64,000 nucleotides of DNA from Mangrovicoccus sp. Lineage in GTDB: Bacteria > Pseudomonadota > Alphaproteobacteria > Rhodobacterales > Rhodobacteraceae. The position numbers and the translations under genes are program-made. Under the pieces are notes generated by a model, which searched no databases, was not told the origin of the DNA, and saw only the letters and a list, made by a program, of their open reading frames with translations. This document shows, piece by piece, positions 39,028 through 53,868 of the stretch. The DNA lies in NCBI GenBank assembly GCA_025800345.1, contig JAOXSB010000284.1:1-64000 (forward strand), read 5' to 3'. How positions within the stretch are numbered: position 1 is the stretch's first letter; every line of letters begins with the position of its first letter.

Positions 39028-39738
39028 TCAAGCGCGGGGCAAGCCAATCGTGAAAAGGTGAAGGGCGAATCGGATCTTTCCGCCCGCGAAATCACCGCTT
39101 TGCGCCCCCAGCCGCAGGGGCGTGTCATCATAATAACTCACTGGCTGGCCTGTGAGCCCGCGCAGCCACGCCCCGGCGCTCAGGCCAATATCGCTGCCAT
39201 AGCGATCATTGCTGCCCGCAACCCCAAGCTGCCAAGAGCTCAAGCTGCCAGTGATCTCTTCGATCACCCGGCCGGTGACGCCGATCACAACCGAGCCCGC
39301 CGGGATCACTTGATCGCTCAGCAAAGATGCGCCGCTGCTGAGCTCTTGGTCGAACTCGATCACCCGCATCATCGAGGCCGCCCCGCCAGGGGAAACCGCT
39401 AAAGCATCGGGCTGCCAGTCGCTGCCATCGTGAATGGCGCAGGCCCCAAGATCCACGATATAGCCCCGCCACCCTGGGCGCGGGCTCACAAAGACCCAGC
39501 CGCCATTCGAGAATATCGCCAGTTTGCCATCTTGGCCTTCCCAGGCCTCAAGCGCGCCCGCAGGCACCCCAAAGGCCGCGCCTTCTTGGGGGGCCACTGG
39601 CGGGGTGGAAACCGAGATCGACAGCAGCCGGGTCTGGCACAGCCCATCCAGCCGGGTCAGCGCCTCGTTTACCGTCACATGTTTTTGCGCCTGGGAAGGT
39701 TGCACCAGCGCCAGTTCCAAATTTGCAGTGTTAGACAT
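39028..39738 (-). CDS. DUF2793 protein, last gene of the GTA cluster
   Basis: This 236-residue protein starts at ATG 39738, overlapping the g15 stop by 8 bases. The first about 90 residues match DUF2793 of phage and GTA tail regions: ANLELALVQPSQAQKHVTVNEAL, QEGAAFGVPAGALEAWEGQDGKLAIFSNGGWVFV. The C-terminal half is beta-rich (IPAGSVVIGVTGRVIEEITGS), suggesting a receptor-binding or fibre-tip domain. Coupling to g15 supports a virion tail part. The role is inferred from position and domain. Confidence 0.85.
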   Translation of the reverse strand: MSNTANLELALVQPSQAQKHVTVNEALTRLDGLCQTRLLSISVSTPPVAPQEGAAFGVPAGALEAWEGQDGKLAIFSNGGWVFVSPRPGWRGYIVDLGACAIHDGSDWQPDALAVSPGGAASMMRVIEFDQELSSGASLLSDQVIPAGSVVIGVTGRVIEEITGSLSSWQLGVAGSNDRYGSDIGLSAGAWLRGLTGQPVSYYDDTPLRLGAQSGDFAGGKIRFALHLFTIGLPRA

Positions 39739-42700
39739 CAATCGCGATCCTTCTGAACGGTCCGGGCCCGTAACGGTCCGAAAGTTGCGCCACTTCAAAG
39801 CTGTATGACCCTGAGGCGATCCCCGCGCCTGCGCGATCTGCGGCGCTGATCTGCCAATCCGGCGTGTTCACGCTTGTCTCCAGCCGCAGCGCGCCATTTT
39901 GGGAAAGGCGCAGCAAATAAGCCTCGCGCCCCTCGCCCAAGGGGATCTCGGGCAGGGTCCATAAATCCCCATCCACGCGGGATCGGCGGATCCATTCAAA
40001 GCGGTGATTGCCCGCCGCATCTGCCTGCATCCGCAAATGCACCGGCGCATAAGGGCGCAGCGCCACGGCTTCATAGGTGAATTGCGATCCCACATAGAGC
40101 GGTGCGTTAAAGGCATATTGCGCCGGGCCGATACGGTAATAGGCCTGGCTTTCGCGCTCTTGCGCGAGCCCATCCAAGGGCTCTAACCCTGGGCCAAGCA
40201 GCACAACAATGCTGCCCGCAGGCCAAGTTTCGGGCATGATTGCATCGGTGCCAAGCTGGCCGCGCAACCGGCCCGACACCGCATAGGTCAGCGGCCCGAT
40301 CAGTTCGGCGCGCTCAAATTGAAAGATTTCCCAATCGCCATGGCCATCACCAATGGCCATGGCATTGCCTCCGGCCAAAAGCCCCGCCCGTTCCTGCGAT
40401 GTTAAACTGCCCCGGCTCAGACGCAGCTCAAGCGGCGCACCGCGATCTATCAGCCCTGGCTGCGCCGCCTGCAATGGCGTCAAAGTCTGGCCAATGATCG
40501 CGGGCTCTTCCACCACCCCGGCTTGGCGAAATCCGCTCTCGGTCGGGCTGGAATACAGCGCCACCGCCCCGGGCCAGGGATTGGCCGTCACCGCCAGCCA
40601 AGCCCCTTCGCGCCCACCGCTGCCGGGCAAGATCGGCAAGTCAAGAAACACCGGAAACACCGGGCCGGGCACCAATGGCGCGGGCTGCGAAGCGATCGCC
40701 GTGACCCCTTCGGCGGCCTCATAGACCGAGCTTTCCACCCGCACCGCCTCGATCATGCGCGCGCCATCGGCCTCAACCCGATCCACCCGGAACAGATCCC
40801 GCGCCCCATCGCTGCCCGTAAGGCTGACAATATCCCCGATCCGCACATCGCTTCGGGAGGGCGGCAAAGCAAAACTGGCCACCTCGCGCGCCAAACGGCT
40901 TTCCGAAAGCCAGCGTTCCACGCATTTGCGCGCCTCGCTCGGGGTCAGCACTTGGGCGGTCTCGCTCTGGGACACGGCGATTGCCGCCGCATCGGGATAG
41001 GCCGCCTCGGCAGATTTCACCCCATAGATGCCATCGGCCTCCACATAGCCCAGGCGCAACCGATCCGCCCCTTCATGCTCCGAGGCGCGCTGGATCTGAA
41101 GCTGCCCGCCGCGCCCATCAGGATCGGCAAATTCGCCCGCCTCCAGCAGATGATCTTCCCGGCCCAAACGGGTGCGAAACACCATCACCCCATTGCGCTC
41201 CATGGCGTCAAACCCATGCACGGTCATCAGCTCTTGCAGCACCGCCCGCGCGCCGCGTTCAAAACTACCGTGATAGCCACGTACAATCCCGTAAAGCTCT
41301 GATACATCGTAGAAAACAATGCCAGCGGCACGGCAAATCTCGGCCACTACCGAGGCCAAGGACCGGGCCGAAGCCCGCCCATTCAACCAATGGCCCCGCT
41401 CGTAATTATCGCCATCGCTCCAAGTGGCCGATTGCGCCGGAAAATACGGATAAGGGCGCGCATCCCAGGCCCAGATATGGGCATGGCTCATATCCACCAT
41501 GGCCCCACCATAAATCGGCGAGCTTGGATTATGGGTGCCATCCCCCCAATATTCGCTCATCGCCCGCAAATATTGCACCTGGATGAAATCATCGCGCAGC
41601 CCGTTCGAGGCCCGGGGCAATTGGCTTTCCGATGATTTCGGATCTAGGAATTTATTGGGCTGGTTGGTGGATTTATCCAAGGCCGCCGCGCCATATTCGG
41701 TGAACCAAATCGGTTTAGAGCGCGGCACCCAAGCGGTGGGGCTGCTCGCGCGCTGTCCGCCCGGGCGGTCATAATGGGCCTGGCCCCACCAATTGCGCAG
41801 ATCCTTATAGCGAAACACCCAAGGCTCCCCATAAGCGCCATCGCTGATCGCTTGGCGGTTTTGGGCGCGGGCGGCGGCTTCATCGGGATAGAACCAATCA
41901 TAGCCCTCGCCGCCAGCCACATTGGCTTTGAGATAATCCAGATCATAGATCGAGCGGGCGATATCGGCGTCCAAATGATCACTGCCATCGCGCCAATCAG
42001 AGATCCGCATGTAGTTGTCGATGCCGATGAAATCGGTCTCGGGATGGGCCCATAGCGGGTCGAGATGAAAGAAATGATCGCCGCTGCCATCGCCAGGGCT
42101 ATAACCGAAATATTCCGACCAATCGGCCGCATAGCTCAGCTTTACATCCGGGCCCAAAATCGCCCGCACATCTTGCAACAGCGCAATGAATTGCGCCACC
42201 GCCGGAAAGCTATTGCCCGGCCCGCGGATCTGGGTCAGCGCGCGCATTTCCGAGCCAATGCAAAAGGCGCTGACCCCGCCTGCGGCTTTGCACAGTGCGG
42301 CGTAATGCAAAATGAACCGGCGCAAGCTGTTCTCTTGCGGGCCGGAATAGCTCACGCTGCCCGCGCCAATGGTGAAATGGCTCGGCTGGGCGCTGCCGAA
42401 AAACGCGGCCACTTCAGCGCTGGCTGCGGCGCTGCCATCAGGGCTGCCGGGCTGGCCCGGGGCTTTGCTCAGCGTGATGCGCCCGCGCCAAGGCAGCTCG
42501 GGTTGAGCGCCCGCGCTGCTCCACGGATCAGGGCGGGTATTGCCGGGCAGTTGATCCATCAAGATGAAGGGGTAAAACAGCACCTCTTTGCCCGCATCGC
42601 GCAAAGCGGTGATCGATTGCACCACCGCCGCATCGGCAGGGGTTCCACCATAAACTGGGCGTCCGTTTTGCCGTGGCACCAGCCCCGCATTACCTTTGCC

Positions 42701-43675
42701 CCAACCGGCCACAGACCAAGGCATCGGGCTGCCATCGGTCTCGCGCTGCTCAATCAACGGGCGCAATTGGCAGGTGCCACAGCGCAGATCATCGCCAAAC
42801 CACGACACCACTAAAGACACCGAATTACAGCGCGGCAAATCCCGGCCCAGATCGCGCAAAGACCGCGTCAGATCCGGGGTCAGCCCCGGCGCATGGACAT
42901 TGGCCACATCGCTCACGCCAAAGCCGCTATCGTAATAAACCGGCTGGGTGGCCAGGGAAAACTCGCCCGTGCCTGGGATCATCGCCACCGCCCGGGCCAG
43001 ATCGCGGATCTCTTGATGGCCGGTGTCGATCTCTGCCGGTTTCGGGCGCACCAATTCGAAGTTGAACTGCGGCACGCGATTGCCAAACCGGGTGATGTCG
43101 AGATCATCAAACACCACATAGGCCGTGCCGCGATAGGCTGGCGTGTTTTCGCTGCCTTCAATGGCGGCGATTTTGGCATCGGGCTGCTGATCATCGCTGC
43201 CGCGATAGACCCGCATGTTCAGGCTATCATCAGCAATCTCTTCCCCATCGGCCCAGATCCGCGCCACATGGCTGATCTCGCCTTCGCATAGGGCAATCGC
43301 CAGGCTCACCCGATAGATATAGCTGGTGGTGGTGCTGCCCGTGGGGCTTGGGGCGCTCAACCCTTTGCCGCCGCCAGTGGTGGTGGTCACCGCCTCTTCG
43401 CTAAAGCGCGAGGCCCAGATCACCTGGCCGGAAACCCGGGTGCGCCCAAATACATAAGGGATCGGGCTGCCTTCGCTGGCCCCGTTCAGGCGGAACCGCT
43501 CCACCCGGCCACGCTCCACCGCTTCTGATCCGGTGCCAAGCAGTTTTTGGTCGATCACACGGCCCAGCCCAGCCCCGATCGCGCGCCCGATTGTGGCCGC
43601 GCCAACGCCCAGAACCGAGCCGCCCAAAGCCGCCCCGGCCGCGCCGCCCGCTGCCGAAAGTACAAGTGTCGCCAT
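39731..43675 (-). CDS. GTA g15 megatron, tail-tip host-specificity protein with TIM-barrel domain
   Basis: At 1314 residues it is the longest GTA gene product. The start is a hydrophobic Gly/Ala stretch (AAGGAAGAALGGSVLGVGAATIG), then a tail-hub fold with VSLAIALCEGEISHVARIWADGEE. A TIM-barrel-like region occupies about 440-760 (FCIGSEMRALTQ, SYAADWSEYFG, GIDNYMRISDW, PIWFTEYG), followed by tail protein J-like beta domains to the C-terminus. It probably forms the baseplate tip and touches or degrades cell-surface glycans. It follows g14 by 12 bases. Confidence 0.94.
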   Translation of the reverse strand: MATLVLSAAGGAAGAALGGSVLGVGAATIGRAIGAGLGRVIDQKLLGTGSEAVERGRVERFRLNGASEGSPIPYVFGRTRVSGQVIWASRFSEEAVTTTTGGGKGLSAPSPTGSTTTSYIYRVSLAIALCEGEISHVARIWADGEEIADDSLNMRVYRGSDDQQPDAKIAAIEGSENTPAYRGTAYVVFDDLDITRFGNRVPQFNFELVRPKPAEIDTGHQEIRDLARAVAMIPGTGEFSLATQPVYYDSGFGVSDVANVHAPGLTPDLTRSLRDLGRDLPRCNSVSLVVSWFGDDLRCGTCQLRPLIEQRETDGSPMPWSVAGWGKGNAGLVPRQNGRPVYGGTPADAAVVQSITALRDAGKEVLFYPFILMDQLPGNTRPDPWSSAGAQPELPWRGRITLSKAPGQPGSPDGSAAASAEVAAFFGSAQPSHFTIGAGSVSYSGPQENSLRRFILHYAALCKAAGGVSAFCIGSEMRALTQIRGPGNSFPAVAQFIALLQDVRAILGPDVKLSYAADWSEYFGYSPGDGSGDHFFHLDPLWAHPETDFIGIDNYMRISDWRDGSDHLDADIARSIYDLDYLKANVAGGEGYDWFYPDEAAARAQNRQAISDGAYGEPWVFRYKDLRNWWGQAHYDRPGGQRASSPTAWVPRSKPIWFTEYGAAALDKSTNQPNKFLDPKSSESQLPRASNGLRDDFIQVQYLRAMSEYWGDGTHNPSSPIYGGAMVDMSHAHIWAWDARPYPYFPAQSATWSDGDNYERGHWLNGRASARSLASVVAEICRAAGIVFYDVSELYGIVRGYHGSFERGARAVLQELMTVHGFDAMERNGVMVFRTRLGREDHLLEAGEFADPDGRGGQLQIQRASEHEGADRLRLGYVEADGIYGVKSAEAAYPDAAAIAVSQSETAQVLTPSEARKCVERWLSESRLAREVASFALPPSRSDVRIGDIVSLTGSDGARDLFRVDRVEADGARMIEAVRVESSVYEAAEGVTAIASQPAPLVPGPVFPVFLDLPILPGSGGREGAWLAVTANPWPGAVALYSSPTESGFRQAGVVEEPAIIGQTLTPLQAAQPGLIDRGAPLELRLSRGSLTSQERAGLLAGGNAMAIGDGHGDWEIFQFERAELIGPLTYAVSGRLRGQLGTDAIMPETWPAGSIVVLLGPGLEPLDGLAQERESQAYYRIGPAQYAFNAPLYVGSQFTYEAVALRPYAPVHLRMQADAAGNHRFEWIRRSRVDGDLWTLPEIPLGEGREAYLLRLSQNGALRLETSVNTPDWQISAADRAGAGIASGSYSFEVAQLSDRYGPGPFRRIAIDV

Positions 43676-43687
43676 TTCAGGTCATCC

Positions 43688-44125
43688 TTAAAGGGGAAAG
43701 GCAAAACAGCCGATAATACGCTTGCGCCAAGGGCTGCTTAGCGGGCTCTCCACCACGCCATGGCCTTGATAGGCATGGATAAAGCTCGGCGCCGTGCCAA
43801 GCTGCGCCATCAGCCCCAAATGCTTGGCCAGATGGCCCTCGCGCATGCGAAACAAAATCACATCCCCCGGCGCGACCTCGCTCAGGGGTTTTTCCGCCAA
43901 TAGCGCCCGGGCCGCCTCCCATAGCAGCTCGCGCCCCTCGGGCTCGGCCCAATCGGGGGTATAGGCGGGGATTTTGCGCGGCAGCGGCCCGATCATCTCG
44001 GCCCAAAGCCCGCAGATCAGGCCCAAACAATCGCAGCCCACGCCTTTCAGCGCCGCTTGATGGTGATAGGGCGTGCCGATCCAACCCCGCGCCGCGGCCA
44101 CGATCTTCTCCCCGCGCGGGCTCAT
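43688..44125 (-). CDS. GTA g14, NlpC/P60 cell-wall peptidase
   Basis: This 145-residue protein has the catalytic Cys in GVGCDCLGLICGLW and His in GHLAKHLGLMA, as in NlpC/P60 enzymes of phage tails. ARGWIGTPYHHQA near the start is the family opening. It should open the recipient's peptidoglycan during DNA delivery. It overlaps g13 by 4 bases. Confidence 0.93.
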   Translation of the reverse strand: MSPRGEKIVAAARGWIGTPYHHQAALKGVGCDCLGLICGLWAEMIGPLPRKIPAYTPDWAEPEGRELLWEAARALLAEKPLSEVAPGDVILFRMREGHLAKHLGLMAQLGTAPSFIHAYQGHGVVESPLSSPWRKRIIGCFAFPL

Positions 44126-45003
44126 GATTGCAAACTCCCGCCGGTATTATTGCCGCTGGTGCGGGGATAGGCCATCAGCCAATCATCGCCGGGCACATGG
44201 GGAAAGCCCCGGAAATTCAGATGATTGCCAAAGCGCGTGCGACAGGTGCCCAAGCTCTTGTCGCAGCCCACCTCCAGCCGCAAAAGATCCCCTGGGCGCG
44301 GCGGGATGCGCAAAGGCTCCCACAGCTCAATCTGCGCCTGGCCGTCTTGGATCTCATGGCGTTTGATCGCCGCGATCTGGCCCTGCATATCGCCGCTTAA
44401 AACCGTCATCCGGCCTCGGTCAAACCGCCCGGCAGCGATGCCGCCGCTTCCTGAAAATCGCAAAATGCGGCTCTCGCGCAGGCTCTCAAGCAGCAATTGT
44501 GCATGATGGGCTGGGTCGTCCAGATCCACTTTGCAGGCCGCATCCCCCAGCACCGCCGCACATCCCCCTTGGATCACCCGGCCAAAGGGCATGTTCAGCC
44601 GATCAGAAAGCCCACGGATCTCGGCGGTGAATTGCGCGCCCTTCAGGCTCACCTCGCCAATACTGCCGCGAAACCGCAGCTCGCGGATCTCCGGATCCGG
44701 CCAATGCACCTGCCAGATCTCGATCAACGCTCGGTCATAGATCCCGGCCCGCAGCTGATCGCCGCTGATCGCCTCCGAGCTCAGCGCCCCCAGCACCCCA
44801 CTGTTATCGGCGGAAAGCCCGCTGGTCTGTTGCAGCGCCTGAGGGCTCAGCCCGCTGGCCGCTTGAAACTCGGTGCTGTCAAAGCGCAACGCCCGATCAT
44901 GATCGGTAAAGCCTTGCACCTGCCCATCGCGCCGCGTGATGCGCCAGCACTGGCAGATCTGCGTCGCGCCGCTGGCCAGATGGGTTTGAAACGCTGTGCT
45001 CAT
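44122..45003 (-). CDS. GTA g13, DUF2163 tail hub protein
   Basis: About 293 residues from ATG 45003; GTG 45009 overlaps the g12 stop and is also possible. The DUF2163/BR0599 pattern is seen in ICQCWRITRRDGQVQGFTDHD, GVLGALSSEAISGDQLRAGIYD and the C-terminal CDKSLGTCRTRFGNHLNFRGFPHVPG with paired Cys, likely an iron-sulphur or disulphide site of the tail hub. It links distal tail protein and megatron. Confidence 0.92.
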   Translation of the reverse strand: MSTAFQTHLASGATQICQCWRITRRDGQVQGFTDHDRALRFDSTEFQAASGLSPQALQQTSGLSADNSGVLGALSSEAISGDQLRAGIYDRALIEIWQVHWPDPEIRELRFRGSIGEVSLKGAQFTAEIRGLSDRLNMPFGRVIQGGCAAVLGDAACKVDLDDPAHHAQLLLESLRESRILRFSGSGGIAAGRFDRGRMTVLSGDMQGQIAAIKRHEIQDGQAQIELWEPLRIPPRPGDLLRLEVGCDKSLGTCRTRFGNHLNFRGFPHVPGDDWLMAYPRTSGNNTGGSLQS

Positions 45004-45005
45004 GT

Positions 45006-45638
45006 TCACACCCGGATCTCGATCACGGGCACCGAAGGGATCTCTCCGGCCTCAAACCCCGCCACGGAAATATCCAGCCGATCACTGTCAAACCGCACCG
45101 GCACGTCAAATTCGAACCCCGCTTGCAACAGCGCGCCACTGCTCGGGGGGCTGGCGAACGTGATCTCGCCGCTCTCAGCGCTTACGGTGAAATCCACCCC
45201 GGCGGTCAGCTCTTGCCCATCTCGGGCCACCCGCACGCTGCCGCTCACGGGTTTGGTGATCTCGCGCAGATAGCTCGCCGGGCCAGAGCGATAAAGCTTG
45301 CTCAGGGCAAAGACCTGGCGCGCGCCATCCCCTTGGCCCAGATCTTGATCCACCGGGCTGACCGGCTGATCTGCCGGGCAGGACCGGTAATCGGACCAAT
45401 CTTTCCAACGAAAGCCAAATAGCTGCCCCTGGCGGGCCTCGAAAAACGCGATCACCGCTTCAATATCGGCCATCGACCGCATCCCCAGCCCCGCATCATA
45501 GCGCCGCCGCCCATGGGCCCAAGGGGTGTTGCGTTCCTCAAACCCATTGGCCAGGGCCACAATCTCCGTGCGCCTCTGCGGTCCGCCCAATGCGCCCAAA
45601 GATACCGAGGCGGGAAATCTCACATCATGAAAGCTCAT
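45006..45638 (-). CDS. GTA g12, DUF2460 distal tail protein
   Basis: This 210-residue protein begins SFHDVRFPASVSLGALGGPQRRTEIV, followed by WAHGRRRYDAGLGMRSMADIEAVIAFFEARQGQLFGFRWKDWSDY in overlapping pieces typical of DUF2460 (TIGR02217). It caps the tail tube before the baseplate hub. It sits 10 bases after the tape-measure stop. Confidence 0.93.
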   Translation of the reverse strand: MSFHDVRFPASVSLGALGGPQRRTEIVALANGFEERNTPWAHGRRRYDAGLGMRSMADIEAVIAFFEARQGQLFGFRWKDWSDYRSCPADQPVSPVDQDLGQGDGARQVFALSKLYRSGPASYLREITKPVSGSVRVARDGQELTAGVDFTVSAESGEITFASPPSSGALLQAGFEFDVPVRFDSDRLDISVAGFEAGEIPSVPVIEIRV

Positions 45639-45648
45639 CGTCGCCTCC

Positions 45649-46314
45649 TCAGCTCAGCCGCCGCCCTTGGGAAATCACCCGCCCCATCTGGGCCGCGATT
45701 TGCCCTTGGGATCGGCGGAACCCCTCAGTGTCAGGGGTTTGGATATGAAAGGTCACATTCACTGGCCCGCCGCCATCGCGGGCCGCGCGCACCCCAAGCG
45801 CCCCATCAGCCCCGCGAACCAGCGGCATGATGGCTTCGGGCCCGGCCTCGCCCATCAGCCCAGCCCCACCGCGCATGGGAAAGGCCACGGGCCCACTGAC
45901 CACCCCACCTTTGGCAAAGGCGGTCACGCGACCTTGGCTAAAGGCGCCGCCTTGGGCAAAGGGCAACAGCCCGGCCACCAGAGAGTCCACCCCGCCGCCA
46001 ATGGCTTGGCCCACCCCGTTGGCAACTGGCGTGATGGCGCTGCGAAACGCCGATGACACCATTTTTTGGCCCACATCGCGCAGCACATCAGAGACTTTCG
46101 CCCCATCCAGCAGCAGATCCTCAAACGCGCCTTTCAGGGATCGCGAAAAGCCTTTGGAAAAATCCCGGCTGCCAGCATCGGCGCTGGCAAATCCTCGGCT
46201 GAGCTTGCCCAGTTCCTCGGAAAACCCAAAGGCCATGGCCCGGGTCGTGGCAAGCGAAGCATCCAGCCCTTGCAGACCAGCCTCCAGATCGTCGAGCTCA
46301 TCTTGTATCGTCAT
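45649..46314 (-). CDS. GTA g11, tail tape-measure protein
   Basis: About 221 residues from ATG 46314 (46317 is adjacent and also possible), after AAAGGCGAG. It has the pattern ELDDLEAGLQGLDASLATTR, a long helix, and Gly-rich repeats such as FAQGGAFSQGRVTAFAKGGVVSGP. This is short for a tape measure, matching the short tail of GTA particles. Its start overlaps the g10.1 stop by 17 bases. Confidence 0.92.
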   Translation of the reverse strand: MTIQDELDDLEAGLQGLDASLATTRAMAFGFSEELGKLSRGFASADAGSRDFSKGFSRSLKGAFEDLLLDGAKVSDVLRDVGQKMVSSAFRSAITPVANGVGQAIGGGVDSLVAGLLPFAQGGAFSQGRVTAFAKGGVVSGPVAFPMRGGAGLMGEAGPEAIMPLVRGADGALGVRAARDGGGPVNVTFHIQTPDTEGFRRSQGQIAAQMGRVISQGRRLS

Positions 46315-46504
46315 CATCTCGCCTTTCATCGGGAAACGCTTGCATGAGCGCCTCAAACCCCGCCCGCCCCATGGGGGCTTGCGCGGGCTCAACACCCAGC
46401 ATTTCCAGAAATTCCACCGGGGTCAGGGCCCAGAATTCTGCCGGTTTCAGCCCCAGTTGCCCAAGCGCGCGCCGCCGCATGGCGGGCCAATCAAACCCGC
46501 CCAT
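46298..46504 (-). CDS. GTA g10.1, tail assembly chaperone-like small protein
   Basis: This 68-residue protein starts at ATG 46504 inside the end of g10. GGFDWPAMRRRALGQLGLKP and FWALTPVEFLEMLG are typical of the small GTA chaperone between g10 and the tape measure. It overlaps both neighbours, which suggests strong translational coupling, as with tail chaperone pairs of phages that use a frameshift instead. Confidence 0.85.
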   Translation of the reverse strand: MGGFDWPAMRRRALGQLGLKPAEFWALTPVEFLEMLGVEPAQAPMGRAGFEALMQAFPDERRDDDDTR

Positions 46505-46826
46505 CGCCTGGTGCCGCCGGACCAAAGGCCAGGGCCAATAGCCGCCCTGCGGCCCGCGCCGCCGCCACCGCGCCGCCTTCGATCTCGGCCTGGCCCAACG
46601 CCTCGGCGCTGATCTCATGGCCCGCCCCGCGCAGGCCTGCCGCCAAAAGCATCAGCAAATCGCGCGCGGAAAACCGGCCCGCTTCAAAGCGCTCCACCAG
46701 ATCAAGCAGCGAGCCCAGGGCCAGGCTGTCTTCCAGTTCGGCCAAGGCCCCCAGGGTCAGCTTCAGCCGCCGCGGCGTGCCATCAATCACCAAACGCACC
46801 TCGCCCGCCCATGGGTTCACGCTCAT
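46491..46826 (-). CDS. GTA g10, tail tube chaperone (GTA TAC) protein
   Basis: This 111-residue protein has NPWAGEVRLVIDGTPRRLKLTLGALAELE and a helical SLLDLVERFEAGRFSARDLLMLLAAGLRG in overlapping pieces, the pattern of GTA gene 10. It overlaps g9 by 4 bases and g10.1 by 14 bases. It probably helps to load tail tube subunits onto the tape measure. Confidence 0.9.
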   Translation of the reverse strand: MSVNPWAGEVRLVIDGTPRRLKLTLGALAELEDSLALGSLLDLVERFEAGRFSARDLLMLLAAGLRGAGHEISAEALGQAEIEGGAVAAARAAGRLLALAFGPAAPGDGRV

Positions 46827-47233
46827 AGGGCCGCAAAGCTCAAAGCCCCGGCCGAGGCCAAGTTCAGCTCATAAGCCGCCTCGCCATCATGATTGCCGGA
46901 ATATTCCAACCCGGTGATTTGAAACGCCCCTTCAATGGTGCCGAAATCGGGGATGATCACTTGGCATTGCGGGGCTTCGGCGTTGAAAAACGCCTCGCGG
47001 GCTTTGGCGTCGCTGGCCGCGTCCTTGAAAATACCTGAGCCAGACACCGAGGCGCTGCGCACCCCGGCCCCCACCAGCAATTCGCGCCAGCCTTGGCTGT
47101 CCAGGCTGGTGGCATCCACGCTTTGGGCGTTAAAGCTCAGCCGCGTGGCGCGCAGCCCGGCAATGGTCTGGAAATCGCCACTGCCGCTCAGATCCATCTT
47201 TAAAAGCAGGTCTTTGCCATTTTGTGCAGGCAT
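46823..47233 (-). CDS. GTA g9, major tail tube protein (TP901-1 type)
   Basis: This 136-residue protein has AQNGKDLLLKMDLSGSGDFQTIAGLRAT and DSQGWRELLVGAGVRSASVSGSG in overlapping pieces, as in phage major tail proteins of the TP901-1 family. It polymerises into the tail tube. It follows g8 by 15 bases. Confidence 0.93.
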   Translation of the reverse strand: MPAQNGKDLLLKMDLSGSGDFQTIAGLRATRLSFNAQSVDATSLDSQGWRELLVGAGVRSASVSGSGIFKDAASDAKAREAFFNAEAPQCQVIIPDFGTIEGAFQITGLEYSGNHDGEAAYELNLASAGALSFAAL

Positions 47234-47248
47234 GTTTGATCTCCTCGA

Positions 47249-47659
47249 TCAGATATCATCAACAAAGGCGCGAAAGCTTAGATCCAAACGCCGTTCAGCG
47301 CCGCTCGGGCCGCGCCGGGCCTGGGCGCTGAGAAATTGCAGCCCGGCCACCTGGCCCTGGCTCAAGCTCGGACGTTGGCCCTCCAGATGGGTGCAAATCG
47401 CCCCAGCGATCTGTTTGATCTGGGCAAACCCACCCAAAGCGCTGATCACGGTGATGGTCAGGCGATGTTCCGCCCCGCGGCTGGTTTTGGTAGAGCCATC
47501 GCGCACCCGCTCTGGACCCAAAGCGATGTAAAGCGGCGGCAAGGTGCCTTCCGCCATCCGGTCCACCACAGGCACGCCCGCCAGTTCAGCAGGGGCCGCA
47601 TCACTGGTGAGCAGATCATAAAGCGCGCGCTGCATCTCGGCGCTGGCCGCATAGCTCAT
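47249..47659 (-). CDS. GTA g8, tail terminator (DUF3168)
   Basis: This 136-residue protein begins SYAASAEMQRALYDLLTSDAAP, with VVDRMAEGTLPPLYIALG and a final DLSFRAFVDDI, the DUF3168 pattern. It caps the tail at the head-proximal end. It overlaps g7 by 4 bases. Confidence 0.92.
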   Translation of the reverse strand: MSYAASAEMQRALYDLLTSDAAPAELAGVPVVDRMAEGTLPPLYIALGPERVRDGSTKTSRGAEHRLTITVISALGGFAQIKQIAGAICTHLEGQRPSLSQGQVAGLQFLSAQARRGPSGAERRLDLSFRAFVDDI

Positions 47660-47994
47660 GGGATTTGCTCCTCAATGCTGGCGCAGCTCAGATAGCGGCC
47701 CGATGGGTCGGTCTCGCGCACCGCGAGGATGCGAAACACTCGGCTGCCTTCGCGAAACCGTTGGGCGGCACTGGGCCGGCTCGGGGTGCCAAAGGGGGCG
47801 GCGCGCACCACGATCTGATGGCTGATCTGGGAAACGCTGGTCGCGCCAAGATTGCGCTCATTGCCGGAACCCGCGCGCAGCTCGCCCCAGATCGTGCCCA
47901 AAGCAACCCAGCTTTGCTCAAACCCGCCTGCGCCATCGGGCACGCGCTGGGGCGCTTCGAGCACCAATTTGCGGTTCAATCGCGCCGGTTTCAT
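47656..47994 (-). CDS. GTA g7, head closure / head-tail adaptor protein
   Basis: This 112-residue protein starts at ATG 47994, overlapping the g6 stop (ATGA). LVLEAPQRVPDGAGGFEQSWV and the C-terminal GSRVFRILAVRETDPSGRYL fit phage head-tail joining proteins of the SPP1 gp16/HK97 gp7 type. Overlaps with both neighbours. Confidence 0.92.
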   Translation of the reverse strand: MKPARLNRKLVLEAPQRVPDGAGGFEQSWVALGTIWGELRAGSGNERNLGATSVSQISHQIVVRAAPFGTPSRPSAAQRFREGSRVFRILAVRETDPSGRYLSCASIEEQIP

Positions 47995-48587
47995 ACCCCG
48001 CCCCCCAGGATACGCACCGTGCGATAGCGCTCGGTCAGAACCGCCACGGGCAAGGGCATATTGCCGTCTTCCATGGCGCCATCGCCGCGATGCTCGTAGA
48101 AATACGCCGCCAGAACCAACACCGCCAATTGCAGATCCCCTGGCAGGCCCTCCCAATTCAGGGCGAACCCGGCGGTAAATCCGATCTCGGCCACGCCCCC
48201 AACGGGGATCTTGGGCAAGCTCGCGCCATTGGCCCGCAACATCGGCCGCTGGGCGTCTTGAACCAATTGCACCCATTCAAGATCAATCGGCGTTTCATCC
48301 CCATTGCGGCCGATGAATTTGAAACCGGTCAGTGCCGTGACCGGCGCAATCGGCAAGGCCTGGGCCTCGGGCGCCCGCCAGGCATTGACCGTCCAGCGAA
48401 AACCGCGGCTCAGCAGCGCTTTGCCCGTGCGCGCCTCCACCGCGGCCAGGGCCGCGCGCAGCACCGCTTCTAACACCCCGTCTTGCACCGCATCATCAGC
48501 AAAGCCGCTGGCCACACGCAATTGATCGCGCAATTGCGCAAGCGGCAGCTCAAAGACCGGGATGGTATTGGCTTCCACCAGATTCAT
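47991..48587 (-). CDS. GTA g6, head-tail connector protein
   Basis: This 198-residue protein has FELPLAQLRDQLRVASGFADDAVQDGVLEAVLR in overlapping pieces, EARTGKALLSRGF and LQLAVLVLAAYFYEHRGD, the helical pattern of connector proteins that stack under the portal. It lies 158 bases after the capsid stop, across a large inverted repeat; this is the only sizeable gap within the cluster. Confidence 0.92.
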   Translation of the reverse strand: MNLVEANTIPVFELPLAQLRDQLRVASGFADDAVQDGVLEAVLRAALAAVEARTGKALLSRGFRWTVNAWRAPEAQALPIAPVTALTGFKFIGRNGDETPIDLEWVQLVQDAQRPMLRANGASLPKIPVGGVAEIGFTAGFALNWEGLPGDLQLAVLVLAAYFYEHRGDGAMEDGNMPLPVAVLTERYRTVRILGGGV

Positions 48588-48622
48588 CGCTCACTCCAAT
48601 TCCCAAATTCCGAAACAGAACT

Positions 48623-48701
48623 GGGGCGCGCATCCACGTGTTGCTCGGACAGAGGGAGCAGCTAGACAACACGGGTTACGATTTACTCAGATGCGCGCCC
48701 C
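48623..48701 (-). promoter_or_regulatory. large nested inverted repeat between capsid gene and g6
   Basis: The outer arms GGGGCGCGCATC (48623-48634) and GATGCGCGCCCC (48690-48701) are perfect over 12 bp. Inside them CGTGTTG (48637-48643) and CAACACG (48667-48673) pair over 7 bp, and TGCTC/GAGCA can form within that. In the - strand transcript this is an about 79-nt structured RNA just after the capsid stop and 36 bases before the g6 start. There is only a broken T-run (AGTTCTGTTTCG) after it. It could be a partial terminator, an mRNA-protecting or RNase-processing structure, or a separate small RNA. Confidence 0.65.
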
Positions 48702-48745
48702 GCCATCGGGCAAGATCGAGCCTCGCCCGACCCTTGGCCGCGCGA

Positions 48746-49930
48746 TCAGCTCGACGCGAATTTCAGCAATTTGATGGCCGCAAAATCGCTCACATCACCG
48801 CCCACGCGCTTGGTGGCATAGAACAGCACATGGGGTTTGGCCGAGAACGGATCACGCAGCACCCGCAGATCCGGGCGCTCGGCCACCGTGTAACCGGCGG
48901 AGAAATCGCCAAAGGCGATGGACATGCTGGCGCTTTCGATCTCGGGCATTTCCTCGGCGATCAGCACCGGATACCCCATCAGCCGCGCAGGTTCAGCCGC
49001 GGCCAAACCATCGGTCCACAAGAACCGGCCATCGGCATCTTTCATCTTGCGCACAGCCCCTGCGGTTTTCGAATTCATCACAAAGCTGGCATTGGCGCGG
49101 TATGCTGCCCCAAGCGCATAGACCAATTCGATGATCGCATCCGAGGGGTTGGCGCTGTTGAAATCGCCATCCACGCCGGTGGTCACATAGCCCAGATTGC
49201 CCCAGCTCCAGCTGTCGTTTTCCACGGTGCCATAGGTCAAAAACCCGGTGGGTTTGTCCATGCCATCGCCGTTGATAAATGCATCCGCCTCGGCCCGGGC
49301 GAATTTATCGGCAATGCGCCCGGCCAGCCAAGCCTCAATATCAAAGGCCGCATCATCCAGCAGGCGCTGGCTGGCTTTGGGTAGGGCGCTCAGCTCGTGC
49401 AGCGGAATGGTGATCCGGTCGATTTGAGGCGCATCGGTTTCCGTCAGGCTGCCAGTTTCCGAAGCCCAGCCATGGCCGATATCGGCGTGATCCACCAGCA
49501 CATCAAAAGAGGTGGCTTCCACATTCACCACGGTGGCGATCGAGCGGATCGAGGCGGTGGATTGGACCACATGGCGAATGGTATCGGCGGTTTGCGGATC
49601 CACCAAAAGGCCCGTGCCATCAGAGGTGACCGTGCTCATCCCCTTGCCTTCCAGCTCAAGCCCGCGCAGCGCGCCATCATCGCCATTGCGCAAATAGGCT
49701 TCAAACGCATGTTTATGGGTCAGGTCATCCTGCGCCGCATTGGACAAGGCAGGGCGTGTGGCAAAAGCAGTTTTTTGATCCAGCATATTCAATCTTTCAT
49801 CCTGTGCTTGAAGATGTTCGGTGATGTCGTTGCGAAAGGTGCTCAGATCGGTGACCAAACCGATCAAAGCGGATTTGACCTCGCCAGCCGCGTTGCTGCC
49901 GCCCGGCTGGGCCGTGTCGGGAGATGTCAT
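48746..49930 (-). CDS. GTA g5, HK97-type major capsid protein
   Basis: This 394-residue protein has an N-terminal helical scaffold-like delta domain (about 1-110, with FRNDITEHLQAQDERLNML) that the prohead protease should remove, followed by the HK97 fold: STVTSDGTGLLVDPQTADTI, ASQRLLDDAAFDIEAWLAG, FINGDGMDKPTGFLTY and SIAFGDFSAGYTVAERPDLRV. It builds the head shell. It starts 1 base after the protease gene ends. Confidence 0.96.
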   Translation of the reverse strand: MTSPDTAQPGGSNAAGEVKSALIGLVTDLSTFRNDITEHLQAQDERLNMLDQKTAFATRPALSNAAQDDLTHKHAFEAYLRNGDDGALRGLELEGKGMSTVTSDGTGLLVDPQTADTIRHVVQSTASIRSIATVVNVEATSFDVLVDHADIGHGWASETGSLTETDAPQIDRITIPLHELSALPKASQRLLDDAAFDIEAWLAGRIADKFARAEADAFINGDGMDKPTGFLTYGTVENDSWSWGNLGYVTTGVDGDFNSANPSDAIIELVYALGAAYRANASFVMNSKTAGAVRKMKDADGRFLWTDGLAAAEPARLMGYPVLIAEEMPEIESASMSIAFGDFSAGYTVAERPDLRVLRDPFSAKPHVLFYATKRVGGDVSDFAAIKLLKFASS

Positions 49931-49931
49931 C

Positions 49932-50528
49932 TCAGGCTCCTTTTTGGGGAAATGGGCGGGTCCGTCCCGCGCCGGTCAGCGCGCGCCTGGCATCCTGCAT
50001 AGCAGTGGCCAGATCGCGCAAAACTTGCTCGTCAGAAGGTTCTGCCTTGGCCCCGATCCGGGCCTCGGGCAGCATGGGAAAGGTGACGACAGAAACCTCC
50101 CATAAATCCACTTCGGTCAGCAGCCTTTGGCCTTGCTCATTGCGGCTGGCCTTGATGGTGCGATAGCCGATGGAAAGCCCGTCCAGCGCGCCTGCCGCAA
50201 TCAAACAGGCTGCTTCCTGGGCGCGGGTGACCTCGGTCAGCAACCGGCCTTTGACATATAGCCCGCGCTCTTCCTCGCGGATCTCGTCCCAAATTCCGAT
50301 GGGCTGGGCCGGATCATGCTGCCAAAGCAATTTCACCGCCCGCCCCGCCGCCGCTTTTGCGGCCAGCGATTTGGCATATGCCCCTTTGACCACGATATCG
50401 CCGCTCTGATCGGCGCTGCCAAAAAGCGAGGCATAGCCCTCGATCACTGTGCCATCAGTGACCTGGATCTGATCGTCGAAACGGCAGAATTTCTGCTCAA
50501 GCCCCGGTGTCTTTCCCGCGTCGAACAT
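49932..50528 (-). CDS. GTA g4, HK97 family prohead protease
   Basis: This 198-residue protein has EGYASLFGSADQSGDIV, the His in LWQHDPAQPIG and the Ser in DGLSIGYR, the His-Ser catalytic pattern of herpes/HK97-type prohead proteases, and VDLWEVSVVTFPMLPEARI. It trims the capsid protein before DNA packaging. It lies between g3.5 and the capsid gene. Confidence 0.95.
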   Translation of the reverse strand: MFDAGKTPGLEQKFCRFDDQIQVTDGTVIEGYASLFGSADQSGDIVVKGAYAKSLAAKAAAGRAVKLLWQHDPAQPIGIWDEIREEERGLYVKGRLLTEVTRAQEAACLIAAGALDGLSIGYRTIKASRNEQGQRLLTEVDLWEVSVVTFPMLPEARIGAKAEPSDEQVLRDLATAMQDARRALTGAGRTRPFPQKGA

Positions 50529-50531
50529 GGT

Positions 50532-50792
50532 TCAAAATCCTCCTGTGGGCGCGATGGTCAAAAAGGTCTTGAAAGCCTGGGCCAGCACCGTGGCCACCAC
50601 CCCGTAAACGGTCAGCCAAAGCCGCCGCTCGAGCCGCTCCATCAGCGCCTCAATGCGGCTCAGCCGGTGATCAATGGCTTCAAATTTCATGTTCAGGATC
50701 CGGTCATGGGCTTCGACAAAATCCTTGGGGCTGTATTCAAACGGTTCCAAAAGGAAGCGCGAGCCCCCGGCGATCCGGCGTATCCCGCTCAT
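50532..50792 (-). CDS. GTA g3.5, small head-formation protein
   Basis: This 86-residue protein has FEAIDHRLSRIEALMERLERRL, a helix, then a hydrophobic C-terminal segment (LTVYGVVATVLAQAF). It corresponds in place and size to the small gene between portal and protease in Rhodobacter GTA. It overlaps the portal gene by 4 bases. Its molecular role is not evident from sequence. Confidence 0.88.
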   Translation of the reverse strand: MSGIRRIAGGSRFLLEPFEYSPKDFVEAHDRILNMKFEAIDHRLSRIEALMERLERRLWLTVYGVVATVLAQAFKTFLTIAPTGGF

Positions 50793-51991
50793 GCACCGCC
50801 CTCCTCCGCCACGGGCGGCAGGCCCAGCATGGCGCGCTTTTCCGCATCACTGAGAAAGCTCGCCTCGCCCACCCGGCGCCACTGCGCCTCGCGCTCGCTG
50901 GCCAGGGCCGGCACATGATCCAGATCCGCTTCCAGGCGTAGCGCGCTGCCGCTACAGCGCCCCAGCCAGGCGGCAATGCCCCCGGCCACCCGCGCCACCA
51001 AAGGCAGCACTGTCAGACGGTAAAAGGCGCGGTTGGCTTCTTGGTAATTGGCATAGGTCGCATCCCCTGGGATCCCCAGCAGCATGGGCGGCACTCCAAA
51101 GGCTAGGGCGATCTCCCGCGCCGCGGCTTCTTTGGTTTTCTGAAACTCCATATCCGAGGGCGAGAACCCCATGGGTTTCCAATCCAGCCCGCCTTCCAAT
51201 AGCATCGGCCGGCCCGCATTGCGCGCGCCCTGGTGATGGGCCGCCATCTCATCGAGCAAACGGGTGTATTGATCCTCGCTCATGGTGCCTTGGCCTTCCG
51301 CGCTGCGATAGACAATCGCGCCGGACGGGCGCGCTGCATTATCCAGCAAGGATTTCGACCAATGAGAGGCCGCGTTATGCACATCCACCGCGCTGGCCGC
51401 GGCCTGTAAGGGCGAGAGCCCGTAATGATCATCTTGCGGATGGAAATTCTTTAGATGGCAAATCGGGCTCAGCTCGGGGCTGACCTCAAAGCGATGCTTT
51501 TTGCCATTCACGCTGTATTCATACCCGGCGGGCCAGCCATCGCGCCCGGGCACCACCGCCATGCGATCAGCGCGCAGCACATGCAACTCTAGCGGCAGCG
51601 CCCCAGGGGCCAGCCCGGCGCCCTCCAAATAGCCATTGCCAGTCAGCAGGAACTGCCCGTAAAGCGCCTCGAACATCTCTGCCGGACCCTGGCCGGGATT
51701 GGGGCGCCCCAGCAGCGCCAGCACCGGATGGCTGTCTTGGCGCACACCATTTTCGCGCAACAGCAAAGGCAAGGCAGCGGCGGCCTCGGCGATCACTTTG
51801 ACCGCGCGGTAGCCCACCGGATTGCCCAAAAACCCGTTTCGGGTGAGCGAGGGCAAATCCCGCGGGCTCCACACCGCGCGGCCCGCCCCGCTCCAAGCGA
51901 TCAGCGGCCCCGTGGCCGAGGCTTTGCGCTCGGGCGCGTCTTGGGCGCTGGCACCGGCTTGGGGCGCGCGTTTGAGAAAGTCCAAAACCAT
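50789..51991 (-). CDS. GTA g3, portal protein (HK97 type)
   Basis: This 400-residue protein starts at ATG 51991, with AAGGAG upstream; an open frame extends to 52075. Portal motifs are GNPVGYRAVKVIAEAAAALPLLL, HFEVSPELSPICHLKNFHP-like (KHRFEVSPELSPICHL), SLLDNAARPSGAIVY and ALAFGVPPMLLGIPGDATYANYQEANRAFY. It forms the DNA entry ring and docks the terminase. About 120 bases separate it from g2. Confidence 0.95.
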   Translation of the reverse strand: MVLDFLKRAPQAGASAQDAPERKASATGPLIAWSGAGRAVWSPRDLPSLTRNGFLGNPVGYRAVKVIAEAAAALPLLLRENGVRQDSHPVLALLGRPNPGQGPAEMFEALYGQFLLTGNGYLEGAGLAPGALPLELHVLRADRMAVVPGRDGWPAGYEYSVNGKKHRFEVSPELSPICHLKNFHPQDDHYGLSPLQAAASAVDVHNAASHWSKSLLDNAARPSGAIVYRSAEGQGTMSEDQYTRLLDEMAAHHQGARNAGRPMLLEGGLDWKPMGFSPSDMEFQKTKEAAAREIALAFGVPPMLLGIPGDATYANYQEANRAFYRLTVLPLVARVAGGIAAWLGRCSGSALRLEADLDHVPALASEREAQWRRVGEASFLSDAEKRAMLGLPPVAEEGGA

Positions 51992-52111
51992 AGAGATCTC
52001 CTTTCCGCGAACCGCGATGGCTGCGGGCACAGCGCTTGGGGCGAGGCAGATCACCTCGCCGCGCTGCAATGGCACTGCGAAAACTGGGGCGTGAATTTGC
52101 GCGTAGTTGGG

Positions 52112-53467
52112 CTAGAGCCCCCGCACCCGCGGGCGGTTGAATGACTTAGAGGGCGCGATCATCAGATCATGCAGCGCCCAAACCAGCGCATCGACCCGGT
52201 CAGGGCTGCCTTTGCCCGCAAACCCGGTCTGGGTCATCAGCCCCATCTGATCCTCCAGCTTGCCCAGCCCGCGCATATGGCTGACCCGCCTTTGTTCATA
52301 AAGCGCGGCCACCGGCTCGGCCCGCGCAACCTTGCCCCGGCTGGCGCGCACGGCGCGAAACGGGGCCACGGGATCGGTCGCCCGGATCAGGCTTTCCACC
52401 AGATCCCCCCCTTGATTGACCTCCGCAACCAGCCGGTCCGCCCCATGCCGCGCCATAGCGTCCAGCGCCGCATCTGCCCAGGCTTGCGGGGTGGCGGCGC
52501 GCAGGCTGGCATCTTCCAAAACCACCGCCCGCCAATCTTGTGGCGGCCCTTCGGTATAGGCCCCGGCCACGATGATGCCGCATTCATCCGATCCCGCATG
52601 GCCGGTCACTGGCGGGTCCACCGCCACCACCACCCGCGACAGCGCTGGCAGCTTGTCCACCTGGACGGCCAGCAGCATCTCTTGGCTCCACAGCGCCCCA
52701 TCGGCATCGGCCAGCAACACGCCATCCAGCTCTTGCCGCCCCAGCCGGGTGCCGTGATAGCGCGCCCGAACCTCTTGCAAAAAGCTCTCGGCCAGATAGG
52801 CGCGATTGGCCTCAGTGGGGGCATGGGTCGTGGCCGTGGACGGCAAATCCAAAATTCGTTTCAGCACGCTGACATTGCGCGGCGTGGTGGTCACCACTTG
52901 GCGTGGGGTCTCACCCAGGCGCAGGCCGAATTGCAGCATGTCCCAAGCATCCTCGGCCTTTTTCCATTTGGCCAGCTCATCGACCCAAGCGGCGTCAAAT
53001 TGCGGCCCGCGCAGACTTTCGGGCTCATGGGCTGAAAAGGCCTGGGCAATCGCCCCATTGGGCCAAACCAGCCGTTTGCGCGTGGCTTCCCATTTGGGTG
53101 TGCGATCCGGGGGCGAGCATTGCAAAATCCCGCTCTCGCCGAACACCATCACCTCGCGCACTTGATCCAAGGTCTCGCCCACCAACGCCACCCGGCGCGA
53201 ACGCCCCGGATCCACAGGCCGCGCCCCTTCCACCTCGGCGCGCACCCATTCCGCCCCGGCGCGGGTTTTGCCTGCCCCGCGCCCGCCCAGGATCACCCAG
53301 GTCTTCCAATCCCCCGCCGGGGGCAATTGATGCTCTAGCGCCCAGAACTCAAAGATATAGGGCAAGGCCGCCAAAGCCTCGGGCGAAAGATCATCCAGAA
53401 ACGCCTCCCGCTCCTTCAGCGGCGCGGAGGCGAGCAAGACGGCGCCCGATTTCAACGCGGGCTGCAT
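52112..53467 (-). CDS. GTA g2, large terminase subunit
   Basis: About 451 residues from ATG 53467; TTG 53530, behind AAGGAAAGG, is an alternative. Walker A-like GGRGAGKTRAG, Walker B FDAAWVDELAKW and the RNase H-type nuclease residue in VVVAVDPPVTGHAGSDECG are present. It packages random host DNA into GTA heads. Even with the shorter start it overlaps the g1 reading frame by 77 bases, in a different frame. Confidence 0.95.
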   Translation of the reverse strand: MQPALKSGAVLLASAPLKEREAFLDDLSPEALAALPYIFEFWALEHQLPPAGDWKTWVILGGRGAGKTRAGAEWVRAEVEGARPVDPGRSRRVALVGETLDQVREVMVFGESGILQCSPPDRTPKWEATRKRLVWPNGAIAQAFSAHEPESLRGPQFDAAWVDELAKWKKAEDAWDMLQFGLRLGETPRQVVTTTPRNVSVLKRILDLPSTATTHAPTEANRAYLAESFLQEVRARYHGTRLGRQELDGVLLADADGALWSQEMLLAVQVDKLPALSRVVVAVDPPVTGHAGSDECGIIVAGAYTEGPPQDWRAVVLEDASLRAATPQAWADAALDAMARHGADRLVAEVNQGGDLVESLIRATDPVAPFRAVRASRGKVARAEPVAALYEQRRVSHMRGLGKLEDQMGLMTQTGFAGKGSPDRVDALVWALHDLMIAPSKSFNRPRVRGL

Positions 53468-53738
53468 CAAAGTCGAGGGCGACACAGCCTCCTGCTGCGG
53501 CGCCGATCTGTTTTGATTTTCTATCGTCAAAACGCTGCCTTTCCTTAAGAACGAGCCCGCTTGAATTGTCCAAGGCGCGGATGACCTGTTTGGCCTCCGC
53601 ATCCAGTTCCATCTCGCCAGCTTCGATCCGCTGCACCAAATCTCCCAACGCGCAGACCGCGCGGTGGAACATTGCATTTGCCTCTTTGAACATCCGGTCC
53701 TCAGAGACGTCCTCCTGCTCGGGATATGTGTGAGTCAT
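53391..53738 (-). CDS. GTA g1, small terminase subunit
   Basis: This 115-residue protein starts at ATG 53738, with AAGGG upstream. A helical N-terminal part (FKEANAMFHRAVCALGDLVQRIEAG) is followed by the C-terminal ALDFDAARVEIGRRLARLRAA, the signature of GTA gene 1 small terminases. GTA small terminases are thought to have lost specific pac-site recognition, which would suit random packaging. It is the first gene of the cluster, preceded by a promoter and leader hairpin. Confidence 0.88.
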   Translation of the reverse strand: MTHTYPEQEDVSEDRMFKEANAMFHRAVCALGDLVQRIEAGEMELDAEAKQVIRALDNSSGLVLKERQRFDDRKSKQIGAAAGGCVALDFDAARVEIGRRLARLRAAEGAGGVSG

Positions 53739-53780
53739 GTTCGGAAATCGCCCTTCTCATGAACTCTGCCCGAGAAAATG

Positions 53781-53815
53781 AAAAAGCGCCTCGAAACCTC
53801 CGTTCCGCGGCGCTT
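53781..53815 (-). terminator. leader hairpin with T-run ahead of GTA g1
   Basis: In - strand sense, AAGCGCC (53815-53809) pairs with GGCGCTT (53790-53784). Inside, GGAAC and GTTTC close a GGAG tetraloop across a 2x2 internal loop. TTT follows directly, giving a TTTTT run with the last stem bases. This is an intrinsic terminator form lying about 20 bases after the predicted start of transcription and 42 bases before g1. Confidence 0.7.
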
Positions 53816-53839
53816 GCCCATTTCTTCCAGCTTGCCCTT

Positions 53840-53868
53840 TTTCTACTTTGGGGCGAGCGGTCTGTCAA
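53840..53868 (-). promoter_or_regulatory. predicted GTA promoter
   Basis: On the - strand TTGACA (53868-53863) is followed by a 17-base spacer and TAGAAA (53845-53840). The -35 is perfect and the -10 matches 4 of 6. Transcription would begin near 53833 and run into the leader hairpin and then g1. Confidence 0.65.

Follow-up and report, generated by a model that had tools for sequence, protein, structure and literature searches.

A conserved terminator-like leader hairpin behind the promoter of RcGTA-type gene clusters in Rhodobacteraceae suggests an antitermination switch involving GafA

Here we propose that the RcGTA-type cluster in a stretch of Mangrovicoccus sp. DNA (Rhodobacteraceae; GCA_025800345.1, contig JAOXSB010000284.1, positions 1-64,000 of the forward strand; the whole 64,000 nt are called the window below) is probably controlled by a promoter-proximal antitermination switch, in which transcription would stop by default at a terminator in the leader and the regulator GafA would give readthrough. 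We infer from sequence both that the leader hairpin terminates and that GafA overcomes it. GTAs are virus-like particles that transfer DNA. Since a conserved 'stop' hairpin lies right after the promoter, the particle genes probably need a readthrough factor, most likely GafA. GTA-producing cells die, and the decision to express these genes must therefore be tight and limited to few cells.

The cluster, like all features of the window described below, is on the minus strand. Its first gene, g1, occupies the small terminase position (53391..53738, 115 aa) and was placed by that position and by homologous ORFs found before g2 in relatives; it had no match in Pfam or NCBIfam. The large terminase gene g2 (52112..53566) was identified by PF03237/PF17289, and domain matches placed the rest of an RcGTA-type cluster at 39028..52075, comprising portal, protease, capsid, connectors and tail tube together with the RcGTA tape measure, an Rcc01695 family protein, hub, NlpC peptidase and megatron, with the last ORF unmatched. 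Domains recognised in the cluster were terminase, HK97 portal, prohead protease, HK97 capsid, RcGTA_tape, Rcc01695 family and GTA_megatron. In the closest relative, a genome of the same genus (G001, locus L003), the g2 alignment contains one in-frame TGA, which may be the stop of the gene itself at the alignment end, or reflect decay or a sequencing error. The Mangrovicoccus genome also encodes a DUF6456 (PF20057) protein of ~400 aa with an N-terminal helix-turn-helix (ORF L032:745-1944), which is the presumed GafA. A CtrA-like site, TTAAGTTGTGTTAA, is located just 5' of this ORF (L032 723-736), and CtrA-like sites have been reported for gafA promoters (PMC6363796).

A minus-strand promoter of the form TTGACA-N17-TAGAAA had been claimed in the original prediction, and direct reading places it at 53868-53840. 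The -35 hexamer TTGACA (53863..53868, read directly from the sequence) is followed by a 17-bp spacer (53846..53862) with a conserved CGnnCG element, the candidate site for GafA's GafZ-like domain, and by the -10 hexamer TAGAAA (53840..53845), assigned from the sequence and the alignment of relatives. The -10 spacing and conserved C/A columns ('CA' = 53834-53833) put the predicted transcription start at 53833, 95 nt from the ATG of g1, within an initially transcribed block, GCAAGCTGGAAGAAATGGGC (53816..53835), that is conserved among the aligned relatives and near-invariant as GCTRGAAGAARTGGG throughout the family. TTGAC stood at exactly -35 in 63 of 100 aligned leaders and one base nearer in most others, the window included. 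Those 63 leaders share a 17-bp spacer with CGnnCG, in which the G at -25 and the C at -22 are invariant; their -10 is TA-rich, the start always has CA, and the sequence from +3 is GCTRGAAGAAGTGGG. A chance origin of the promoter was ruled out, as the 25-base pattern TTGACN4CGNNCGN7GTA matched only once in the whole genome of the strain, at the GTA promoter (the reversed-pattern control gave 2 matches). Likewise, the single match to TTGAC[AT]-N16-18-TA[TG]A[AC][ACT] in the 64-kb window is the GTA promoter. A generic motif scan of the window called neither the promoter nor the hairpin, owing to its strict rules.

Directly behind the early block lies an intrinsic-terminator-like hairpin (53784..53815), supported by RNAfold, covariation and a terminator scan. 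On the minus strand it reads AAGCGCC-G-CGGAAC-GGAG-GTTTCG-A-GGCGCTT and continues with TTTTTCATTTTC into g1 at 53738. A hairpin had been expected about 20 bases past the start, running into TTTTT with 42 nt left to g1: it begins ~18 nt from the predicted start, and both the T tract and the 42 nt to the g1 ATG (53738) were found as claimed. The T5 tract occupies 53781..53785 in the context TTTTTCATTTT, with two of its five T residues inside the stem. As to the shape of the hairpin, the 7-bp stem (53815-53809 paired with 53790-53784) and the GGAG loop held, whereas the proposed 2x2 internal loop with 5 bp gave way in RNAfold to a 1x1 G/A mismatch with 6 bp. The folding energy from 53815 to 53784 is -20.2 kcal/mol, and that of a 39-nt core is -20.8 kcal/mol (z = -4.65; equalled by none of 200 shuffles). 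With a stable GC-rich stem and a U tract directly after it, the element has the sequence hallmarks of an intrinsic (Rho-independent) terminator and is predicted to act as one. Loops in relatives are often GNRA tetraloops (GAAA, GCAA, GUGA, GUAA) despite varying stems; the window has GGAG.

RNAfold and covariation also revealed a lower stem of 8 bp (53824-53817 paired with 53782-53775), overlooked in the original prediction, which wraps the T tract and extends the full hairpin to 53775..53824 (-26.9 kcal/mol for 59 nt, z = -4.2). This lower stem could arise only in read-through RNA. The leader contains a second stem-loop, CTCGGGC/TCATGAG (53756..53774), just 5' of the ribosome-binding region. 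It is imperfect in the window, where 5 of its 7 pairs are kept, and perfect in most relatives (CTCGTGC/GCATGAG).

The same leader was present 5' of g1 in most of 30 g2-bearing loci of related genomes. We built a covariance model, R1, from 11 leaders; six bases were removed by hand from one hairpin-2 loop of the seed (row L015x), the unedited locus scoring 83.8 bits. Among 248 Rhodobacteraceae genomes, almost all one per genus, R1 matched in 145 (146 matches in total), and g2 was present in 217 genomes of this set. DUF6456 proteins were found in 139-143 of the 145 leader-bearing genomes; control genomes for the DUF6456 family include Caulobacter. Distances to g2 were tabulated for 111 R1 matches, 35 further matches having no g2 among the rows listed. 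In 109 of the 111, the leader was on the same strand as g2 and 184-380 bp (median 241) 5' of it; of the remaining two matches, one was split by a contig end and one was a weak stray. In 289 genomes of the class, R1 gave 2 matches, both in Rhodobacteraceae, and 11 other alphaproteobacterial families yielded no promoter-proximal leader terminator. At least 14 of 45 R1-negative leaders also have a hairpin and T tract between promoter and g1. Some g2-bearing genomes (among them G003, G021, G026, G072 and G197) are without a leader terminator, so that the terminator is not essential to every GTA. Terminator-less lineages are a minority, and several of them share a different leader, ACAGGCAA..AAAGGTxTCGAG, before g1, and other control may operate there.

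Conservation of the stem in relatives had been named as a check on the original prediction. Throughout the family, R. capsulatus included, hairpin and T tract proved to be conserved, with strong compensatory change, and because of this family-wide conservation the leader hairpin is not a chance structure. In 101 leaders, 94.0% of cells were paired, compared with 83.1% in shuffles, and two-sided changes occurred at 26 of 28 pairs (240 such cells vs 50 in shuffles); the alignment was fitted to R1, so these pair counts lean towards the model, and the cells are non-independent events. Slid versions of the structure were only 44-67% paired. Taken by itself, the lower stem was 94% paired, with 30 two-sided changes vs 7 in shuffles, and the second hairpin was paired in 93% of cells with two-sided changes at all 7 of its pairs. 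At least five T residues among the 8 nt after the hairpin were found in 93 of 100 relatives, against a background of 0.9% of downstream windows. Moreover, the tract position that faces a G (column 116) is 98% T, though C would pair better, and an unpaired tract position is 91% T. This enrichment, and the retention of T at G-facing and unpaired positions, indicate that the T tract is selected for itself. A model-free scan for a hairpin with T tract at <=-12 kcal/mol detected 96% of R1-positive leaders vs 17.5% of shuffles, and at <=-18 kcal/mol 91% vs 4.3%.

For R. capsulatus, in which GafA binding has been mapped, we used the loci of strains DSM 1710 and SP108 from GTDB, found via g2. The exact g1 primer pattern of R. 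capsulatus had no match in IMG/VR or GTDB contigs, since the primer belonged to a deletion construct. The R. capsulatus leader has TTGACATTGCGGACGCTCTAAGGTAGAAA (DSM 1710), the early block and a terminator-like hairpin, AAGCGCAACGGGAAACCGTTTGCGCTTTTTTC, and scores 77.7 bits with R1. In the work of Fogg (2019), GafA bound only one of five overlapping EMSA probes, that covering 76-125 bp upstream of g1, and the transcription start was reported within the same 76-125 bp (PMC6363796). Consistent with this, the DSM 1710 base homologous to the start A of the window is 94 bp upstream of g1. The 76-125 bp stretch of DSM 1710, CATTGCGGACGCTCTAAGGTAGAAATAAGCCATGCTAGGAGAGGTGGGCA, takes in the spacer block, the -10, the start and the early block and extends to the first bases of the hairpin, reaching the first base of its GC stem region; the probe was positioned by its stated distance to g1, and since the original strain was SB1003 its true limits may lie a few bases away. 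The CGnnCG block of the window would thus correspond to part of the probe bound by GafA in R. capsulatus, which makes it a candidate element. Sherlock and Fogg (2022) reported that the C-terminal part of GafA binds the RcGTA promoter block and that GafA interacts with omega (PMC9638019). These reports deal with the same promoter, and the probe that GafA bound takes in the block defined above, but the hairpin adjoining the probe goes unremarked: a terminator is mentioned in neither report, and PMC9638019 is silent on termination and antitermination. The reading of the hairpin as terminator of the upstream gene was rejected, as the conserved promoter precedes the hairpin; R. capsulatus moreover has another inverted repeat with a T tail, seen by eye 5' of its -35, which also opposes this reading.

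Based on these data, we suggest a Q-like switch as the simplest reading: polymerase leaving the promoter would meet the intrinsic terminator at about +18 to +53, with release of a ~50-55-nt RNA as the default outcome. Once GafA is made, its C-terminal, GafZ-like (DUF6456) part would bind the promoter over spacer, -10 and early transcribed block, and promoter-bound GafA could then load onto polymerase and carry it through the leader terminator. Such a modified polymerase would also be expected to pass a second terminator that many relatives have after g2. In R. capsulatus and Thioclava, weak R1 and Rfam matches directly behind g2 prompted us to scan this region, and in 22 of 54 named GTA loci vs 7.4% of shuffles the interval from g2 to the following gene contains a compact hairpin with T tract (at <=-15: 19 of 54 vs 1.9%). 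Carriers include R. capsulatus (L213, ~3049-3085), Paracoccus, Thioclava, Sinirhodobacter and others, and the loci concerned also include L191, L192, L193, L194, L195, most of L178-L190 and further ones; the window has no post-g2 terminator. That relatives have a second terminator speaks for a processive change in polymerase rather than a local fix.

The closest precedent is the GafY/GafZ-IHF-terGTA system of Caulobacter crescentus, in which Tran and Le (2024) showed that GafZ lets polymerase pass terGTA as well as the foreign terminator rrnB T1 (PMC11150451). GafZ is homologous to the C-terminal part of GafA, GafA being a homologue of GafY plus GafZ, and the authors speculated that GafA might antiterminate too (PMC11150451). 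Both systems have an RcGTA-type cluster and a homologous regulator; in Caulobacter the GafZ element lies between -35 and -10 (PMC11150451), as does the candidate element here. The post-g2 terminator of relatives occupies the position of terGTA, which directly follows the terminase gene gtaT (PMC11150451). The systems also differ: terGTA consists of three 150-bp repeats after gtaT, whereas the window has a single classical hairpin within ~55 nt of the start; GafA is one protein, whereas Caulobacter has GafY and GafZ as separate ones; and the Caulobacter -35 is degenerate, whereas the -35 here is near consensus. Similarly, the Q proteins of phages lambda and 21 and AlpA of Pseudomonas load between the -35 and -10 of their promoters (as summarised in PMC11150451), although GafZ resembles neither Q nor AlpA in sequence or structure (PMC11150451). 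As in the Q and AlpA systems, the presumed terminator here is a short way downstream, with a long late-type operon behind it. The distance from start to terminator is shorter than in lambda. The antiterminator homologue encoded in the genome and the putative terminator between promoter and operon are parts expected of a promoter-loaded GafZ- or Q-like system.

Among the alternatives, a constitutive partial terminator, or damper, that only lowers leaky expression while GafA acts purely at initiation via omega is rather improbable. In its favour, omega is the subunit by which GafA is proposed to recruit RNAP in R. capsulatus (PMC9638019). Single-hairpin terminators are leaky, and some lineages do without the hairpin. 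The near-consensus -35 also counts against a switch, because such a promoter may not need GafA to fire, and the role of GafA may be confined to initiation, as the work on omega recruitment proposes (PMC9638019). A damper does not, however, account for the second terminator after g2 in many relatives, which initiation control alone would not overcome, and the homologue GafZ, whose element has the same place in the promoter, acts as an antiterminator (PMC11150451).

Further points against a simple switch are the absence of the leader terminator from some g2-bearing genomes, the absence of a post-g2 terminator from the window, and the conserved lower stem around the T tract, which would be superfluous for a plain terminator, as would the second hairpin. 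We consider it unlikely, yet conceivable, that the folded leader RNA, with its early block, T-tract-wrapping hairpin and second hairpin, is a nut- or put-like cis-acting element read by GafA or RNA polymerase; the hairpin would then terminate as long as the hybrid contains the T tract, and with the longer stem formed it would license processive antitermination. RNA antiterminators of the HK022 put type have two nascent stem-loops that alone modify RNAP, and two stem-loops are present in the leader. Slightly less probable still is a 5'-UTR role with no termination in practice, in which the two hairpins stabilise the GTA mRNA or tune translation of g1. Conservation and covariation extend to the lower stem and the second hairpin, the latter lies directly 5' of the ribosome-binding region, and 5' stem-loops can shield an RNA from RNase E. 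Such a role is at odds with the T residues kept at mismatched and G-facing positions, where pairing favours other bases.

It is very doubtful that the ~50-55-nt RNA predicted to be released is a trans-acting small RNA: its sequence and structure are conserved and the predicted product is short and stable, but promoter, GafA site and terminator explain this conservation, and no target or Rfam family was found. The least credible reading is classical attenuation, in which a leader peptide, a riboswitch or an RNA-binding protein would work with an antiterminator hairpin that competes with the terminator: although the terminator is directly before the first gene and 95 of 100 sequences have an NTG in the early block, only ~18 nt precede the stem, leaving little room for an aptamer, and NTG-frame lengths range from 0 to >60 codons. 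Within hairpin 1, 23% of sequences have a stop in the NTG frame, a rate like that of the other frames (14% and 24%), and a leader peptide was rejected since no leader ORF is conserved. Rfam gave no match in the leader of the window (best, sroD, 20.2 bits vs a gathering score of 50) or of six relatives. The short distance before the stem, the lack of a conserved ORF and the absence of Rfam matches together make RNA-based attenuation unlikely. Antitermination or attenuation had both been put forward for the leader; conservation and covariation support a switch, antitermination is favoured, and a promoter-loaded antiterminator, presumably GafA, fits far better than attenuation by leader RNA.

Antitermination of a GTA cluster is already known from Caulobacter (PMC11150451), and the leader terminator is what is new here: no such element was described for RcGTA-type clusters in the literature searched, which included few subscription journals, and searches for RNA data at the GTA leader locus gave nothing beyond Caulobacter. 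For the activation of RcGTA by GafA, omega recruitment has been proposed and antitermination suggested only by analogy. A conserved terminator that starts at the end of the GafA-binding stretch provides a concrete target, open to a simple two-construct test in R. capsulatus, and would add a second layer of control, initiation followed by readthrough. It also suggests that antitermination is common to the GTAs of Rhodobacter and Caulobacter. Korotaev et al. (eLife 2025) reportedly found that the Bartonella BaGTA, a GTA of other phage origin, is controlled by antitermination.

Finally, the leader is a sequence signature for RcGTA-type clusters across Rhodobacteraceae. Phage records searched by g2 gave only matches of <60% identity and no GTA record. 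An exact 23-base leader pattern was found in 15 IMG/VR contigs, and all 15 have a GTA g2 (64-74% identical) just downstream. These 'viral' contigs (L163-L177) are bacterial GTA loci catalogued as viruses, for which the leader could act as a filter.
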